Shown piece after piece: positions 23,286 through 30,590 of a DNA stretch of 40,283 nt. Each line of letters begins with the position of its first letter. Positions within the stretch are counted from its first letter, which is position 1. The notes under the pieces were generated by a model. It ran no database searches. It had not been told where the DNA came from and worked only from the letters and a program-made list of their open reading frames with translations. Source of the stretch: a virus. The DNA is taken from IMG/VR virus record IMGVR_UViG_3300044533_001663, positions 1-40,283 of that record. One strand, 5' to 3'. Position numbers and translations under genes: made by a program.

Positions 23286-23773
23286 TGACGATGGCGAAGC
23301 GGGTTTCGTTGTGGGTGACCTTTGGCCAGCGGCAGGTCCAGGTGGGGTCGTACGACACCGCCGCCGAGGCCGAGGCTGTGCAGGCGCGCATGCTTGAGGC
23401 TGGCGCCGCTGGTGTGACCGTGGTCGACGCCGGGGCCCCGGACGGTGACGCGCTGGCGGGGCAGGTGGGGCTGCCGTGGCCGGTCTTGCGACAGCCCCCG
23501 AGTCTCGACGCCGAGATCGAGGCGCTGGACCGCGAGATGTGCCACGCGCGGATCGAGGCGGCAGCACGGCTTTTCCCCGTGGAGGGGGCCCTGCGCGTGT
23601 GGGGGATGCAGGGGCGGCGCATGCCTGGGGGGCACGTCTGGGGTGCGCCTGTGTCGCTGGGGACGTGCTCGACGATGGAGCACGCGCAGGAGATCGCGGA
23701 GGGCACGGTCGCGGCTGGGGATGTGGTCGGGGATCGGTGGGTGGTGGTGATCGTGGATGGGAGGTCGTCGTGA
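23285..23773 (+). CDS. Hypothetical protein, 162 aa
   Basis: The ATG at 23285 overlaps the resolvase stop. The N-terminal 50 residues look like a small alpha/beta domain (VSLWVTFGQRQVQVG, then an EAEAVQARMLEAG helix). Two further segments of similar flavour follow, and the C-terminus is VVVIVDG. The function is not recognised. It is coupled to the helicase gene, whose GTG overlaps its stop. Confidence 0.5.
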   Translation: MTMAKRVSLWVTFGQRQVQVGSYDTAAEAEAVQARMLEAGAAGVTVVDAGAPDGDALAGQVGLPWPVLRQPPSLDAEIEALDREMCHARIEAAARLFPVEGALRVWGMQGRRMPGGHVWGAPVSLGTCSTMEHAQEIAEGTVAAGDVVGDRWVVVIVDGRSS

Positions 23774-25770
23774 TCCCCCTCCCCTGCCCCGACGGCCAGA
23801 CCCCGCGCGCCTGGCAGACCCAAGCCCTCGCCGCCCTCCGCGACGCCGCCCGCGGCGCTGGCCTGCGCCGGGTGATCATCACGGCCGCGACCGGCACCGG
23901 CAAAGGGACGCTGCTCGCGGGCCTGTGCGCGATCTACACCCGGGCCAAGCAGCGCGTCTTGGTCTTGGTGCACCGCGACGAGCTGATCCGCGACCTCGCC
24001 GGCCGCTGCGAACTGGTCGGGGTGACGGTCGGCATCGTCAAGGGGGCCGAGAACGGGGTGCTGGCGCCCTGTGTCGTGGCCTCGGTACAGAGCCTGCGCG
24101 GTGAAAAGCGACTGGCGCAGCTCGGGCGCTTCGACCTGGTGATCACCGACGAGTGCCACCACGCCACCGCCCCGACCTACCAGGCGGTCTATGCACGGGT
24201 CGGTGAGGTGCGGACGGCGCTGGGGCTGCCCGCGGCGCTGCATGTCGGCCTGACCGCCACGCCCTTCAGGACCGCGAAGGCTGGGGGTGTCTCTGGCCTG
24301 GGTGACGCCTACGAGGCCATCATCTACGAGCACGGCATCCGGCAGGCCATCGAGGCGGGCGACCTCGTGACGCCCCAGGCGATCCGGGTGGACACCCACG
24401 TCGAGCTCGCGGGCCTCTCCGTCCGCGGCGGCGACTATGCAGAGGAGGACCTCGCGCGCGTCATCGACCACGACGAGCGCAACGAGGCGATCGCGCGCTG
24501 GTATGCCGAGAATGGCGGCTGCGCGAGGTTCCTCGGCTTCGGCGTCTCGATTGCGCACGCCGAGCGGCTGGCGGCGGCTATGCAGGCGCAGGGCATTGCC
24601 GTCGAGGCGGTCCACGGCACGATGCCTGCGGCGCTGCGGGCCGAGCGGCTGGCGGCTTTCAGGTCCGGCGCGCTGCGGGGGCTGTTCAGCCGGGATCTTC
24701 TGTTCGAGGGCTTCGACGCGCCTTTTGTTTCAATGCTTCTCGCGGTCCGCCCGACGGCGTCGCAGATCATCGCGCAGCAGCTCTTGGGGCGGGGCTTGCG
24801 GCTGTACCCGGGCAAAACGACGTGCCTGGCGGTGGACTTCGTTCGCTTCCTTGACGTGCTGGACCTAAGCCTCATCCCGAGCCTGGGGGCAGCCCCTGAG
24901 GCCGACGCTGACGTGGGGTCTGCCCCCGGTCTGCGCCCCGGCGACCTCGTGGTCCACCGCTATGATGACCACGGCGTGGGGCAGATCCTCAGTCTCGTGC
25001 CCGAGGCCGACAGCCTGTGCATCGTGCGGTGGCGGCCGTCGGAGCCAGACACGGCTGAGGCCAGGCACGGGCTCGCGGAGTTGGTCAGGGCCCCGCGCGA
25101 GGCGGTGGAGCAGGTGCCGATCCCACTGCGGGTGACGGGCGTCAGCGAGTCGTCGGTGTGCATCCTGCCCGGGTCCGACCCGCGGCGGGCGTGGCCGTGG
25201 GTGGCGCAGGGGGAGGGCACCAAGGCAGACCCCCGGCGGTGGGTCTGTGTCTGGGAGCCGCACCCGGATGAGCAGGTGCGCCCGGGCGGGGTGCTGGGCG
25301 CCGTGGCCGTCGTAGTGGAGACGACGGGCGGGTGGGTGCTCTGGGTGCACAGCGTGCGCAGGGGCAAGGTCAAGCCCGACGACACCGAGTGGGCCCCGGA
25401 GCCGTTCACCGCCCGGCCGCGCGAGGCCGGGCAGCGCGAGCCGGTGATGGAGCCTGGCGCGCTCGGGCGCCTGGGGCGGATGAAGGCTGGCGAGCGGGTG
25501 CTGGCGGCGTTGGGGTGCCGGGTGCCGGACCTCGGCGCGGCCTGGCGGCAGGCCCCGGCGACGGACGGGCAGGTGCGCCGGCTGCGGGCGCTGAGGTACG
25601 GTCGCGATCTGGGGGCTGTGACCCGCGGCGAGGCGTCGAGCCTGATCGGGGCGGCCGAGGGGTGGCGGGCGGTGGTGGCGGCGAGGATGGAGAACAGGCG
25701 GCAGCACGCAGTTTCGCGTGTGGGCGGCGGTAACGGTCAAGGGTCGCAGGAGGTGGCAGATGTCGGGTGA
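23770..25770 (+). CDS. SF2 DEAD/DEAH-type helicase with C-terminal accessory domains
   Basis: GTG 23770 gives 666 residues; in-frame sequence upstream is shadow. Motifs in order are Walker A AATGTGKGT (K45), DECH box (127-130), TAT (162-164) followed by PFR, and motif VI QLLGRGLR (337-344). These are the hallmarks of ResIII-type superfamily 2 helicases that unwind DNA during replication or repair. After the motor, near residue 391, GDLVVHRYDDHGVG recalls the Tudor-like domain at the end of PcrA/UvrD proteins. A final helical domain contains DGQVRRLRALRYG and GEASSLI, a pattern seen in other phage ATPases. The extra domains may tether the helicase to polymerase or DNA. Confidence 0.82.
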   Translation: MIPLPCPDGQTPRAWQTQALAALRDAARGAGLRRVIITAATGTGKGTLLAGLCAIYTRAKQRVLVLVHRDELIRDLAGRCELVGVTVGIVKGAENGVLAPCVVASVQSLRGEKRLAQLGRFDLVITDECHHATAPTYQAVYARVGEVRTALGLPAALHVGLTATPFRTAKAGGVSGLGDAYEAIIYEHGIRQAIEAGDLVTPQAIRVDTHVELAGLSVRGGDYAEEDLARVIDHDERNEAIARWYAENGGCARFLGFGVSIAHAERLAAAMQAQGIAVEAVHGTMPAALRAERLAAFRSGALRGLFSRDLLFEGFDAPFVSMLLAVRPTASQIIAQQLLGRGLRLYPGKTTCLAVDFVRFLDVLDLSLIPSLGAAPEADADVGSAPGLRPGDLVVHRYDDHGVGQILSLVPEADSLCIVRWRPSEPDTAEARHGLAELVRAPREAVEQVPIPLRVTGVSESSVCILPGSDPRRAWPWVAQGEGTKADPRRWVCVWEPHPDEQVRPGGVLGAVAVVVETTGGWVLWVHSVRRGKVKPDDTEWAPEPFTARPREAGQREPVMEPGALGRLGRMKAGERVLAALGCRVPDLGAAWRQAPATDGQVRRLRALRYGRDLGAVTRGEASSLIGAAEGWRAVVAARMENRRQHAVSRVGGGNGQGSQEVADVG

Positions 25771-26413: not shown

Positions 26414-29066
26414 ACAGACCCTCCTCGCCGCGGCCCTGGACTACGCCCGGCGCGGCTGGCGGGTGCTGCCGCTGCACAGCGTCGACCACCTGGGCGAGTG
26501 CACGTGCGGCAGCCCCTGTGCCTCGCCCGCGAAGCACCCGCGGCTGCCTGACGGGGTCAAGGGCGCGAGCGCCGACGCGCAGCAGGTCCGCGAGTGGTGG
26601 CGGCGCTGGCCCCATGCCAACGTCGGGGTCGCGACGGGGCCTGAGTCGGGCGTGTGGGTGCTGGACCTCGACCGCGCCAAGGCGGGCGAGGCGGACGGGC
26701 TCGCGGCTGTGCTCGACGTCTGCGAGTACGCCCTCGACCTCTCCGCAGCCGTGGAGACGGGCTCGGGCGGGCAGCACCTGTGGTGGGCGTGGCCGGAGGA
26801 GGGCACGGTCCAGAGCCGGGCCCGGGTGCTCACCCTCGACGGCGTCAAAGCTTCGGCCGATACCCGCGGCAGGGGCGGCTACGTCGTCGCGCCGCCGAGC
26901 GTCCATGCGTCGGGCCGGCTGTACCGCTGGACGCAGGAGCCCCCCACCGAGGGCCTGCCCGCCTGCCCAGGCGCGCTGCTCGAGGCGGTCCGGGCGCCGC
27001 AGCGCGAGGCCCCGCCTGCCGCGGCTGGCGGCCCCAGGGTCGCGCCTGAGCTTGACGGCGACTCACGGGCCGCCCGCTACGTCGAGGGCGCTCTGCGGCG
27101 CGCCTGCGAGCGCGTGGCTGCGTCGGCGCCTGGGGGCAGGCACGCGGCGCTGCTGCGCGAGGGCGAGACGCTGGGCGGGTGGGTGCACCTGGGGGTCTGC
27201 CCGCCGGAGGTGATGATCGAGGCTCTGACGGCTGCGGGCGTCGCTGCGGGCGTGCCTGAGGCTGAGGCGGTCCGGACGGCCCGTGACGCGGTGGCGCACG
27301 GGCAGGAGCGGCCCAGGGAGCTGCCCGCGGCGTCGTACGCGGGCAGGGGGCGGGCCCATGACGTGGGCGAGGAGGAGGTCGACGCAGCGGGCCTCGACTG
27401 GGATGTGCCCGACGCTGAGGAGGATGAGGGCGAGGATGATGGCTACGTGCCAGGCGTCGGCGTCGAGGTTGCGGAGGAGGACCCGGAGATCAGCGGCGTG
27501 CAGGTCCGGGGCCGGCCCCAGATCGTCGTCACCGGCCGGCAGCCCCGGGACGTGGTCGGCGACGCGCGGCGGGCGCTGGCCAGCCTGCGGGGCGCGGGCC
27601 GGCTCTACATGCGCGACGGGCGCGTGGTTCAGGTGGTCGTCACCGAGCACGGCCCCGCGATCCGCGAGGTTGGGGCCGACCAGCTGACGGCGTGCCTGGT
27701 CGAGTCGGCGGACCTCATCGAGCTCCGCCGGCCGCGGGCGCGCGAGATGACCGCGGGCGAAGCCCTGCTCGAGGAGCCCGCCAAGGCGATCCCCGGCTAC
27801 CTGCTGCCGGCGCTGGCAGGGTCGCGGGAGGAGTGGCTGCCGCTGCTGTCCAGGGTCGCAACCGCGCCCTACTACGACGCGGACGGGCGCCTTGTGGCGG
27901 ACCCTGGGTACGACCAAGGCAGCCGCGGCTACCTGTCCGAGGGGCTGGCGCGGGTGCGGATGACGGCAGACCAGGCGCTTGCTGTCATTGACGACTGGAT
28001 CGGGCAGTTCCCCTTTGTGGGGCCCGCCGACCGCGCGCATGCGCTGGCTTTCGCCTTGACGCCGATCGTGCGCGACCTGGTCCACGGGCCGGTGCCGATG
28101 ACCGTGTTTGAGGCGCCCGCCCCAGGCACCGGTAAGAGCCTCCTGATGCAGGTTCTGGCCTCGGCAGCGACCGGTCGCGCGGTCGAGCCGACGCCGATGT
28201 CCAGCCAAGAGGACGAGCGGCGCAAGGCGATGGGCTCGATGCTCCAAGAGGGCCGCCCCGTCGTGCTTCTAGACAACGTGCGCGGGCATCTTCACGACCC
28301 GGCTCTGGAGGGCGTGTTGACCGCGTACCCGACGTGGAGTGACCGCCGGATGGGTGGGCAGGACCGGCTCCGCGTGCCCGCCGTGGCTGTCTGGGGATTG
28401 TCGGGCAATAACTTGACCATGAACGCCGACCTTGCGCGGCGCACGGTCACGGTCCGTCTCGACGCACGCTGTGCTCGGCCTGAGGCGCGCACCGGCTGGC
28501 GGCACGCGGACCTGCTGCGCTGGACAGCAGACCATCGCGACGAGCTGCTGAGCGCGTTGCTGGCGCTGGTTCAGACGTGGCAGCTCGAGGGGCGACCGAC
28601 GGGGACTGCCGTGCTCGGCAGCTACGAGGCCTGGGCGCGCGTACTCGGCGGCATCCTCGTGGCCGTCGGTGTGGCGGGGTTCTTGGGCGACCGCGAGACG
28701 CGCGCCGAGACGGTCGACCCCGAGACGGCGGAGTGGGTGGGGCTGTTGCAGGTCTGGCTGACCGACCCGCAGCTCCGCGGGCGCAGGGCGGCGGGTGAGC
28801 TCGCGGCCGTCTGCGCAGACCGCGGGCTCCTGCTCGGGGTGCTGGGCGATGGGCAGCCCCTGTCGCGGTCGCGGCGCATGGGGCGCGCGCTCGGGGCGCT
28901 GCGCGGTCGGGTCTTCAGGATCGACGCTCAGCACGAGGTCGAGGTCGTCTCGCCCGGCATGCTCCACGGCGTGACCACCTACGAGGCTCGGGTGCTGGGC
29001 GAGGTGGGCAACGAGGTGGGCAAGGGCGGCCCGCGACAGGTTCTACCTTTCGAGCCGAGCCCTTGA
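26403..29066 (+). CDS. Prim-pol N-terminal domain fused to a helicase-type ATPase
   Basis: This 887-residue protein has an N-terminal bifunctional primase-polymerase domain. The D-L-D metal site is at 88-90 (in VWVLDLDRAK), the GSGGQH segment has His125, and RGRGGYVVAPPS lies near 155. An acidic linker follows (about 330-370, many Asp and Glu). The C-terminal motor has Walker A PAPGTGKS (K578) and a later Walker B-like VVLLDN and a sensor-like GNN. It should make primers and load or drive the replication fork. No separate DNA polymerase gene was seen, so it may also extend primers or depend on the host enzyme. It overlaps the upstream gene by 11 bp and is followed by a strong terminator and the origin-like region. 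Confidence 0.82.
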   Translation: MSAEQTLLAAALDYARRGWRVLPLHSVDHLGECTCGSPCASPAKHPRLPDGVKGASADAQQVREWWRRWPHANVGVATGPESGVWVLDLDRAKAGEADGLAAVLDVCEYALDLSAAVETGSGGQHLWWAWPEEGTVQSRARVLTLDGVKASADTRGRGGYVVAPPSVHASGRLYRWTQEPPTEGLPACPGALLEAVRAPQREAPPAAAGGPRVAPELDGDSRAARYVEGALRRACERVAASAPGGRHAALLREGETLGGWVHLGVCPPEVMIEALTAAGVAAGVPEAEAVRTARDAVAHGQERPRELPAASYAGRGRAHDVGEEEVDAAGLDWDVPDAEEDEGEDDGYVPGVGVEVAEEDPEISGVQVRGRPQIVVTGRQPRDVVGDARRALASLRGAGRLYMRDGRVVQVVVTEHGPAIREVGADQLTACLVESADLIELRRPRAREMTAGEALLEEPAKAIPGYLLPALAGSREEWLPLLSRVATAPYYDADGRLVADPGYDQGSRGYLSEGLARVRMTADQALAVIDDWIGQFPFVGPADRAHALAFALTPIVRDLVHGPVPMTVFEAPAPGTGKSLLMQVLASAATGRAVEPTPMSSQEDERRKAMGSMLQEGRPVVLLDNVRGHLHDPALEGVLTAYPTWSDRRMGGQDRLRVPAVAVWGLSGNNLTMNADLARRTVTVRLDARCARPEARTGWRHADLLRWTADHRDELLSALLALVQTWQLEGRPTGTAVLGSYEAWARVLGGILVAVGVAGFLGDRETRAETVDPETAEWVGLLQVWLTDPQLRGRRAAGELAAVCADRGLLLGVLGDGQPLSRSRRMGRALGALRGRVFRIDAQHEVEVVSPGMLHGVTTYEARVLGEVGNEVGKGGPRQVLPFEPSP

Positions 29067-29113
29067 CGGCGCCGAGTTTGATCACCGGCTGACAATGACC
29101 ATCAAGACGACAT

Positions 29114-29145
29114 AAACCCTCGGGTGCGCAAGCGCTCGGGGGTTT
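29114..29145 (+). terminator. Terminator of the replication operon
   Basis: A 14-bp stem (29114-29127 with 29132-29145) pairs fully if G-U pairs are allowed. It encloses a GCAA tetraloop and ends in TTT. It lies 47 bases after the prim-pol stop and should end early rightward transcription. Confidence 0.85.
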
Positions 29146-29190
29146 GCTGTTGGGTCTGCCGCGAAGCTCAGGCAGGGCGACGGCAGACCC

Positions 29191-29536
29191 AGGTGGGTGG
29201 GCAGGGTGGGATAGCCGGCCTCTGGGTGGGCAAGGTTTTGCTATCCCACCTCGCTTAGGATGACGTACAGAACGTCGTTACAAGCAAGCTGGGTGGGATA
29301 GGTGGGATAGGTGGGTTCTCCTACGTGGGTGCATGAGTGATGTGTCATATCACACATACGCACATGTACGTATGCGCCACGTGTGCACGCACACGTGTGG
29401 GGATGGCCGTTCTTGCCCACCTATCCCACCCAGTCGCGATTATGGCAGGAGTAAGCGACAATAGTGCTGGGTGGGATAGCTCGCGCTTGCCCACCTGGAG
29501 CCGGATCATCCCACCCTTGCCCACCCTTGCCCACCC
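29191..29536. repeat. Iteron-like array of two decamers, both orientations
   Basis: GGTGGGATAG copies end at 29214, 29301, 29310 and 29479, with inverted CTATCCCACC at 29241-29250 and 29421-29430 and a partial copy at 29507. GGTGGGCAAG occurs at 29225-29234, with inverted CTTGCCCACC at 29412, 29486, 29516 and 29526 and a partial copy at 29196. The shared core is GGTGGGNNAG. Two copies at 29292-29309 are tandem with a 9-bp period. The arrangement is that of replication-initiator binding sites beside a primase-helicase gene. Confidence 0.7.
29340..29397. repeat. Cluster of palindromes in the origin-like region
   Basis: Three inverted repeats follow each other: ATGTGT/ACACAT (29340-29345 and 29352-29357), CATACG/CGTATG (29355-29360 and 29369-29374), and a perfect 9-bp pair CACGTGTGC/GCACACGTG (29378-29386 and 29389-29397) with a two-base centre. 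The stretch alternates purines and pyrimidines, which favours cruciform or Z-like forms. Confidence 0.65.
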
Positions 29537-29580
29537 GCGGCAGCCCCTGCCTGGTCATGTGTGCGATCTCACACAGGCGC

Positions 29581-29602
29581 ACCGTATCGCTGATGATACG
29601 GT
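29581..29602. promoter_or_regulatory. 8-bp inverted repeat, candidate operator
   Basis: ACCGTATC (29581-29588) and GATACGGT (29595-29602) are perfect inverted arms with a six-base spacer. They lie 15 bases before the -35 of the late promoter, a usual place for an activator or repressor site. Confidence 0.55.
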
Positions 29603-29616
29603 CGAGGGTCTGCCGC

Positions 29617-29645
29617 TTGCGTGCTCGGGGTGGCGCGTGTAGTGT
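29617..29645 (+). promoter_or_regulatory. Late promoter candidate, TTGCGT-N17-TAGTGT
   Basis: TTGCGT (29617-29622) and TAGTGT (29640-29645, directly preceded by TG) are 17 bases apart. It would begin the transcript of the terminase, portal and capsid genes. The same -35 sequence is used before the major capsid gene. Confidence 0.6.
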
Positions 29646-29762
29646 GGTCGGGGCACCCACCCCTGGGGCCCCTCCCATGTCCGGTTTCCACCACACACGG
29701 TCGGAAAAACCGGAAATCTCCGCGACATACGAGCCGCCCGTGGGCCGCTCGACGAGGCGCCG

Positions 29763-30590
29763 GTGACCACGCCCGCACCTCCGCACCGGCCTGCAGGCCC
29801 GGCGGCAGATCCCAGACCACCCGCAGCTGCAGGCTCTGGGGCTGCCGCAGCGCCAGTCCGCTCGCGTCGTGAGGACCTGGCCGCCGAGGTGCGCGAGTGG
29901 GAGCTCCTCGCGGGCGAGTGTGGCGACGCACGGCCGAAGGAGCGGCTGGACATCCTCAAGGCTCTGCAGGCCGCGCGGGCGCGCTTGCGCGACTTCGACG
30001 CCGCGCTCACGGTCGACCGGCTCGCGGTTGAGGAGGCGGCGCGCAAGCGGTCCATGCTCGCCCTCGCCGCCGGCTCGCACGTCGCCGCGGGCCGCGCCGC
30101 ACAGCAGGCCGAGCAGTCGCGGCTTGAGCGCGAGGAGCGCGAGCGACAGGTCCGCGAGCAGGAGCTGGCGCGCGAGACCCCGGAGTCGGCGCTGGGCCTG
30201 CTCGGCGAGCGGCTGCGCGCCCTGCCGGCGGGGCAGCTGCGGCGCCTGCTCGACCTCGTGTGCCCGGCGCTCCACCTGGCGCCGGGCGTGCCCTGCGTCG
30301 CGTGCGGCCGGCCGACACCGGACAGCACCCCCGCGGCAGACCCAGGCGCGCCTGTCGTGGCGGTGGCGCCGCCTGTCGTGGCTGCCGCGCCGGCGGCGCC
30401 GGCCACGCACGCTGTAGCCTCGCACGCTGTGGCCCCGCAGGATGCCCCAGGACCGCGCGCGCGCCCGCAGGCGGCTCAGGGTCTGCCGCCGGCTGTGGGT
30501 GCTGCTGTGGGGCCCGTGGCCGCGCCACAGGCGGCACCGGCCGCCCGCCGCGTCATCGGGGCGCCGCGCGTGCCTGGGGGTGACCAGTGA
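29763..30590 (+). CDS. Putative terminase small subunit
   Basis: The 275-residue protein starts at GTG 29763. After a Pro/Ala-rich leader of about 35 residues it is helical, with a coiled stretch from about residue 85 to 140. A CVAC pair lies near residue 180, and the C-terminal 90 residues are low-complexity Ala/Pro. It lies directly upstream of the large terminase, whose GTG overlaps its stop. This position and the helical core suggest the DNA-recognition subunit. No helix-turn-helix was certain, so the call rests mainly on position. Confidence 0.5.
   Translation: MTTPAPPHRPAGPAADPRPPAAAGSGAAAAPVRSRREDLAAEVREWELLAGECGDARPKERLDILKALQAARARLRDFDAALTVDRLAVEEAARKRSMLALAAGSHVAAGRAAQQAEQSRLEREERERQVREQELARETPESALGLLGERLRALPAGQLRRLLDLVCPALHLAPGVPCVACGRPTPDSTPAADPGAPVVAVAPPVVAAAPAAPATHAVASHAVAPQDAPGPRARPQAAQGLPPAVGAAVGPVAAPQAAPAARRVIGAPRVPGGDQ

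Follow-up and report, generated by a model that had tools for sequence, protein, structure and literature searches.

The window analyzed here, the whole 40,283-base stretch of an IMG/VR virus record with a GC content of about 0.74, comes from a phage of actinobacterial type and carries a dense cluster of short repeats between a gene combining a primase-polymerase (Prim-Pol) with a helicase and the probable genes of the terminase. The question raised by this locus is whether the repeats form the replication origin, as proposed in the initial annotation, or serve DNA packaging, transcriptional control, or partition or recombination.

Repeat units and architecture of the array

The window contains 12 exact decamers, six copies of GGTGGGATAG and six of GGTGGGCAAG, with six on each strand, whereas dinucleotide-preserving shuffles predict 0.02 and 0.06 copies, respectively. 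All 12 are located within 29015-29535 and none is found elsewhere in the 40-kb window; as regards a second iteron site like crr of P4, exact copies are confined to this segment of a record that is linear and may be incomplete. The initial annotation was right about the two orientations and slightly low in its estimate of about ten copies. Its division of the repeats into two decamer families is not retained: given that the copies follow each other at a spacing of 9 bp (29292/29301/29310 and 29412/29421) or 10 bp and that their final three bases drift, the real unit is a single iteron, GGTGGGNNN, with a 9-bp period. Most of the copies are located in the non-coding region to which they had been assigned; the exact copy at 29015 and the near copy at 29003 are in the 3'-terminal coding sequence of the prim-pol/helicase and therefore outside the non-coding DNA. 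The palindrome reported at 29378-29397 is indeed perfect over 9 bp (CACGTGTGC-AC-GCACACGTG), and the GC content is lower as described, 0.63 at 29067-29762 and ~0.54-0.55 at 29316-29411, against ~0.74 (~74%) for the genome. That this is the only large non-coding region is unproven, given that simple gene calls leave gaps at 12.8-16.5 kb and 18.6-20.4 kb, both of normal GC content, which may contain uncalled genes.

By the positions of GTGGG and CCCAC, the array is a mirror image centered on 29360 (Table 1): from left to right, outer iterons, a 24-bp dyad, tandem iterons, a 96-bp center, inverted tandem iterons, a second dyad and outer iterons again. A third match to GTGGG-N14-CCCAC, at 29397, is produced by its overlap with the right tandem; the closest relative (L001, see below) lacks it. 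The probable terminator hairpin that precedes the array has an equally strong counterpart of different sequence at the same place after the helicase stop in two other relatives (L002 and L028); a terminator consensus scan, which requires a T-tract, gave no match.

Table 1. Features of the prim-pol/helicase locus and the adjoining terminase genes (window coordinates).
Feature	Position	Strand	Basis or remark
Prim-Pol, D5- or SF3-like helicase and C-terminal winged helix, 887 aa	26403-29066	+	PF09250, E 6e-39
C-terminal winged helix, predicted iteron reader, aa ~773-867	28719-29003	+	AF2 model; third helix aa 819-833
Iteron-like copies in the 3' end of the helicase gene, GGTGGGCAAC and GGTGGGCAAG	29003-29024	+	Near copy 29003, exact copy 29015
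Strong hairpin past the helicase stop, probable transcription terminator	29110-29149	+	RNA fold -27 kcal/mol, z -6.3
Outer left iterons	29192-29214	+	Exact-copy positions
Left 24-bp dyad, GTGGGCAAG-GTTTTG-CTATCCCAC (GTGGG-N14-CCCAC)	29226-29249		Geometry common to L001, L002, L028 and pWTY27
Left tandem iterons, 3 copies, 9-bp period	29292-29315	+	Copy positions
Center, low-stability spacer, proposed melting site	29316-29411		Duplex stability in lowest 0.3%
Right tandem iterons, 2 copies, 9-bp period, inverted	29412-29430	-	Copy positions
Right 24-bp dyad, GTGGGATAG-CTCGCG-CTTGCCCAC	29471-29494		Dyad geometry
Outer right iterons, 3 copies, 10-bp period	29506-29535	-	Copy positions
Probable terS	29763-30590		Directly follows the array region
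terL	30587-32221		PF03237

Several further elements were noticed in the same non-coding DNA. An operator-like palindrome, CCGTATC-N6-GATACGG, is present at 29582-29601 and also in L001, L002 (5722) and L006 (8931), and its placement relative to the iterons (right, left or center) varies among these four sequences. Half-palindromes of the form TGTG-N8-CACA, resembling CRP sites, are found at 29341-29356 and 29560-29575 (TGTGTCATATCACACA and TGTGCGATCTCACACA), one of them inside the center. A block at 29639-29700, just upstream of terS, consists of GTAGTGTGGYC followed by an inverted repeat of the GGGGCCCC type and ATGTCC, is kept in L001, L002, L006 and L028, and is a candidate for a promoter or for the true packaging site.

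The adjacent primase-helicase

The product of the gene upstream of the array is assigned by PHROG to DNA polymerase/primase and contains a Walker A motif (PGTGKS) and an LLDN motif. The AF2 model of residues 361-887 (pLDDT 80) matches vaccinia D5, the SaPI5 primase-helicase, ASFV PrimPol and NrS-1; the match to the SaPI5 structures 7ola/7om0 has a VIA Z of ~13. When the C-terminal domain was modeled separately, its core reached a pLDDT of ~85-93 with the order helix-helix-helix-strand-strand, and the best VIA-align rows were the winged-helix regulators Zur and Fur, at a weak Z of 6-7. Given that a Foldseek search with this domain gave no significant match, its relation to the winged helices of P4 and SaPI5 is drawn from the order of the fold; a profile search against PDB sequences yielded nothing at E 0.01. 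Two genes upstream of the prim-pol gene, the window also encodes a 764-aa SF2 helicase (ResIII/DEAD, phrog_16; 23476-25770).

Conservation of the array and pattern searches

Three relatives, L001, L028 and L002, encode prim-pol/helicases with 97%, 74% and 66% identity, respectively, to that of the window, and all of them retain both dyads, the 9-bp tandems and a dyad-to-tandem spacing of 65-67 bp (67/65 in the window and L001, 67/67 in L002 and 67/66 in L028). Between the window and L001, the iteron cores and the center together differ at 1 of 181 positions (the center at 1 of 93 bases), compared with 24 of 464 in the other non-coding DNA (Fisher p = 0.005, a test that, like the enrichment tests, counts related sequences as independent).

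When 2.9 million viral contigs were scanned for pairs of dyads separated by 205-235 bp, three contigs were retrieved, all of them these relatives; the 148-178-bp version of the scan gave two chance matches (L085 and L086), which lack the helicase. Searching for three copies of GGTGGGNNN, a gap and two inverted copies identified five viral contigs, and in 5/5 a homologue of the prim-pol/helicase is encoded directly upstream. The homologues found upstream of inverted GGTGGG arrays reach down to 25-29% identity. The orientation of the repeats does not discriminate, and the control scan with divergent orientation is no clean negative, because it also matched arrays that adjoin primase/helicases (L033, L035, L036, L037, L038 and L040). 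Four pattern matches in genome contigs, next to a LysR gene (L056), an ABC gene (L057), a peptidase (L059) and DUF2804 (L061), were set aside as chance or unrelated neighbors, and the protein scan of genome contigs detected no relative. Elsewhere, in phages and bacterial genomes (L033, L036, L037, L040, L041, L050, L058 and L060), arrays of the GGTGGG type were also observed 3' of DUF5906/VapE, D5_N or DUF927 helicases, in convergent or divergent orientation and, in several cases, with an AT-rich center.

Exchange of the repeats together with the helicase

The comparison of L002 with L006 separates the two neighbors of the array. The DNA of these two loci is 89% identical further upstream, 88% identical in the Prim-Pol domain and 94% identical from a point just to the right of the iterons through the terminase, whereas the helicase, the C-terminus and the iterons are mostly unalignable, with a single 133-base piece at 72%; the iterons that L006 carries at the same place are of the GCGGGGGTT type. 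Given that this block was replaced between flanks of 88-94% identity that include the terminase, the repeats travel with the helicase and C-terminal domain and not with the packaging genes.

For a wider sample, loci should not be picked by their repeats, so we used a draw led by a helicase profile, run against randomly drawn genomes of Actinomycetota and Pseudomonadota; a locus was scored when the most repeated 8-mer in the 600 bp past the stop surpassed all control windows of that locus. Standout downstream repeats were found at 15 of 18 loci in Actinomycetota and at 6 of 17 in Pseudomonadota, where the other 11 homologues have no standout array downstream. The repeats vary in sequence (they include CGGGTACT, GCGGGGTT, GCGGAGAT and GGGGTAAC), and their usual arrangement is one of inverted arrays flanking a center of 70-120 bp; the repeat of L027 is a two-letter k-mer, GGTGGGTT. 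Remote relatives that share the ATPase alone mostly have no standout array downstream, and no clear or standout iterons were seen 3' of the primase in BPP-1/BIP-1, which are quoted in the pRN1 paper. At one locus (L064, 5318-5427, Limnohabitans sp. Bal53) the iterons, of the GGTGGGTTT type, are within the 3' end of the helicase gene itself, and their translation would therefore give a Gly/Phe-rich tail.

Comparison with known origins

The plan of the array is already known and belongs with the origins of the pWTY27 type and of PICIs/SaPIs, in which a self-loading primase-helicase has, 3' of its own gene, iterons that flank a melting site. In the Streptomyces theta plasmid pWTY27, repAB and the iteron comprise the minimal replicon, replication was judged bidirectional, and RepA binds GTGGGAAC repeats directly 3' of repA, as demonstrated by EMSA and by DNase I footprinting that left the central loop unprotected; in the published model, the repeat is read as a stem-loop (PMC3583192). 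The window helicase aligns with RepA at 31.8% identity over 428 aa (blastp, E 9e-55). In both systems, the homologous helicase has a prim-pol partner and its gene is immediately followed by GTGGG iterons; both also have two 24-bp GTGGG-N14-CCCAC dyads, 9-bp tandems, a low-stability center and mirror symmetry. The differences are that, in the phage, prim-pol and helicase are a single fused protein, the iterons are more numerous, a terminase is adjacent, and the center spans ~96 instead of 55 bp, with alternating purines and pyrimidines. The dyad-to-tandem distance is 56/56 bp in pWTY27, so that of the phage is 11 bp, or about one helical turn, longer, a difference that would fit binding of the proteins to the same face of the helix.

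In the pri-rep-ori modules of PICIs/SaPIs, the primase-helicase initiator is immediately followed on its 3' side by an AT-rich region with an iteron set on either side (PMC6092414, PMC7581432), an organisation stated to be without parallel among known bacterial replicons (PMC6092414). The likeness to the window is one of layout and fold, with two iteron sets around a presumed melting region; the center of the window is GC-moderate rather than AT-rich, and the window is not a PICI, given that a large terminase (TerL) is encoded on the record itself. The alpha protein of P4 is likewise a multifunctional primase-helicase, and its C-terminal winged helix binds the origin repeats (summarised in PMC4234260). 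The resemblance is to the protein as described; since alpha has a Toprim primase and the phage protein an AEP-type Prim-Pol (PF09250), the window does not contain a P4 alpha origin.

For ORF904 of pRN1, which by the published description also combines a prim-pol, an SF3 helicase and a winged helix, the origin adjoins the 3' end of the gene, past a terminator hairpin, and consists of an inverted repeat around a ~60-nt loop; recognition of a stem-loop, not of iterons, was proposed for such proteins (PMC4234260). pRN1 is described without iterons, whereas the inverted arms in the window are iteron arrays and not a single essential long stem-loop.

The central spacer

Within the center, palindromes are located at 29355-29374 and 29378-29397, and purines and pyrimidines alternate at 48 of 50 steps between 29346 and 29398, which ranks first in the 40 kb. 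No other tract of the genome or locus alternates as strongly as the center does in the window, L001, L002 and L028. In duplex stability, three of these four centers fall in the lowest 0.3-0.8%, that of the window in the lowest 0.3%, and the L002 center is at 7.7%; the center of pWTY27 falls in the lowest 1% of the plasmid. Folding of the center, calculated with RNA parameters, is no better than that of shuffles (z -1.1). Alternation as a general feature of such origins was considered and rejected, given that it ranks first only in these four sequences and is missing from pWTY27, L006 and others. Low stability, in contrast, is widespread, and we take it to be the general feature and alternation to be a special trait of this GC-rich group.

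Function of the array

The array is mirror-symmetrical, conserved, linked to the helicase gene and separable from the terminase. We interpret the segment 29003-29535 as the replication origin, and the neighboring Prim-Pol and D5/SF3-type helicase with its C-terminal winged helix as the initiator, with a probability of roughly 0.9. This agrees with the function originally suggested, adds an initiator where that suggestion named none, and is supported by the mirror anatomy kept beside homologous helicases, including that of a footprinted plasmid origin, and by the exchange of the repeats along with the helicase but independently of the terminase. The GC-skew check suggested at the outset was of no help: the cumulative skew has its minimum at ~14.5 kb and its maximum at ~29.5 kb, the latter opposite to the usual sign of an origin, and it is uninformative as an origin test because, in addition to the wrong sign, both turns coincide with borders of gene modules.

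By analogy with the binding published for RepA of pWTY27, the window helicase would bind the iterons, most likely by reading GGTGGG through the C-terminal winged helix. In the mechanism that we propose, the winged helix of each monomer would read the GGTGGG core of one iteron, so that the mirror arrays, with a 24-bp dyad and tandem iterons on each side, could assemble two facing helicase rings, presumably hexamers. The rings would melt the low-stability center and depart in opposite directions, making replication bidirectional, and the fused Prim-Pol domain would prime the exposed strands for the replicative polymerase.

Three other functions have to be weighed against an origin. The repeats could be operators at which a repressor, or the helicase itself, controls transcription of replication or late genes. 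Plasmid iterons often serve the control of copy number as well, and the palindrome at 29582 is operator-like. However, a scan for promoters of the sigma-70-like type found none in 28900-29900, the array follows the gene and its hairpin and is symmetrical around a low-stability center, and the homologous array of pWTY27 is needed for replication (PMC3583192). We consider a purely regulatory role very unlikely; dual use of the iterons, including autoregulation or copy control, is possible.

A packaging site (pac or cos), with the small terminase, the product of the next gene, binding the repeats, is suggested by the position of terS and terL directly after the array. However, L006 shares the terminase side with L002 and yet has different iterons, and plasmids that lack a nearby annotated terminase (pWTY27, pCM32 and Streptomyces plasmids) have the same arrays next to helicases, so that the repeats are not inherited with the terminase genes. 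Packaging therefore appears to be a scarcely credible function of the iterons, and a separate packaging site may be located nearer to terS. A ParB-type partition site or a recombination/attachment site, which repeats and palindromes clustered in non-coding DNA might also indicate, has a negligible probability, given that the ten flanking genes scanned include no recognizable ParA/ParB, integrase or recombinase and that the repeats co-vary with the helicase gene.

Implications for replication origins of Prim-Pol/helicase elements

The published models for this class of initiators are in conflict, with a stem-loop proposed for pRN1 (PMC4234260) and iterons for pWTY27 and PICIs. The window, its relatives and the block exchange indicate that initiators of this class read iterons, with the C-terminal domain as the probable reader, and they suggest that what was published as a stem-loop reflects the inverted symmetry of two iteron arrays. 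As general statements, both an origin plan restricted to PICIs and stem-loop recognition are argued against by the loci examined here.

A broader reading, which we offer tentatively and which as a whole is rather unlikely to hold in every part, is that the helicase domain, the winged helix and the origin could form one exchangeable cassette, as in a swap of the L002/L006 kind; that the mirror origin with two arrays could be general for the Prim-Pol/D5-like helicases of phages, plasmids and integrated elements; and that, in the GC-rich group, the alternating tract could replace the AT-rich melting site, with opening through a change of conformation, for example to Z-DNA or a cruciform. If this reading is true, the mirror origin with two arrays would be no hallmark of PICIs. 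The rule of dyad, tandem and center is specific enough to locate this group's origins from sequence alone, and the paired variants of helicase and iterons are a ready set for learning how a winged helix selects its repeat.
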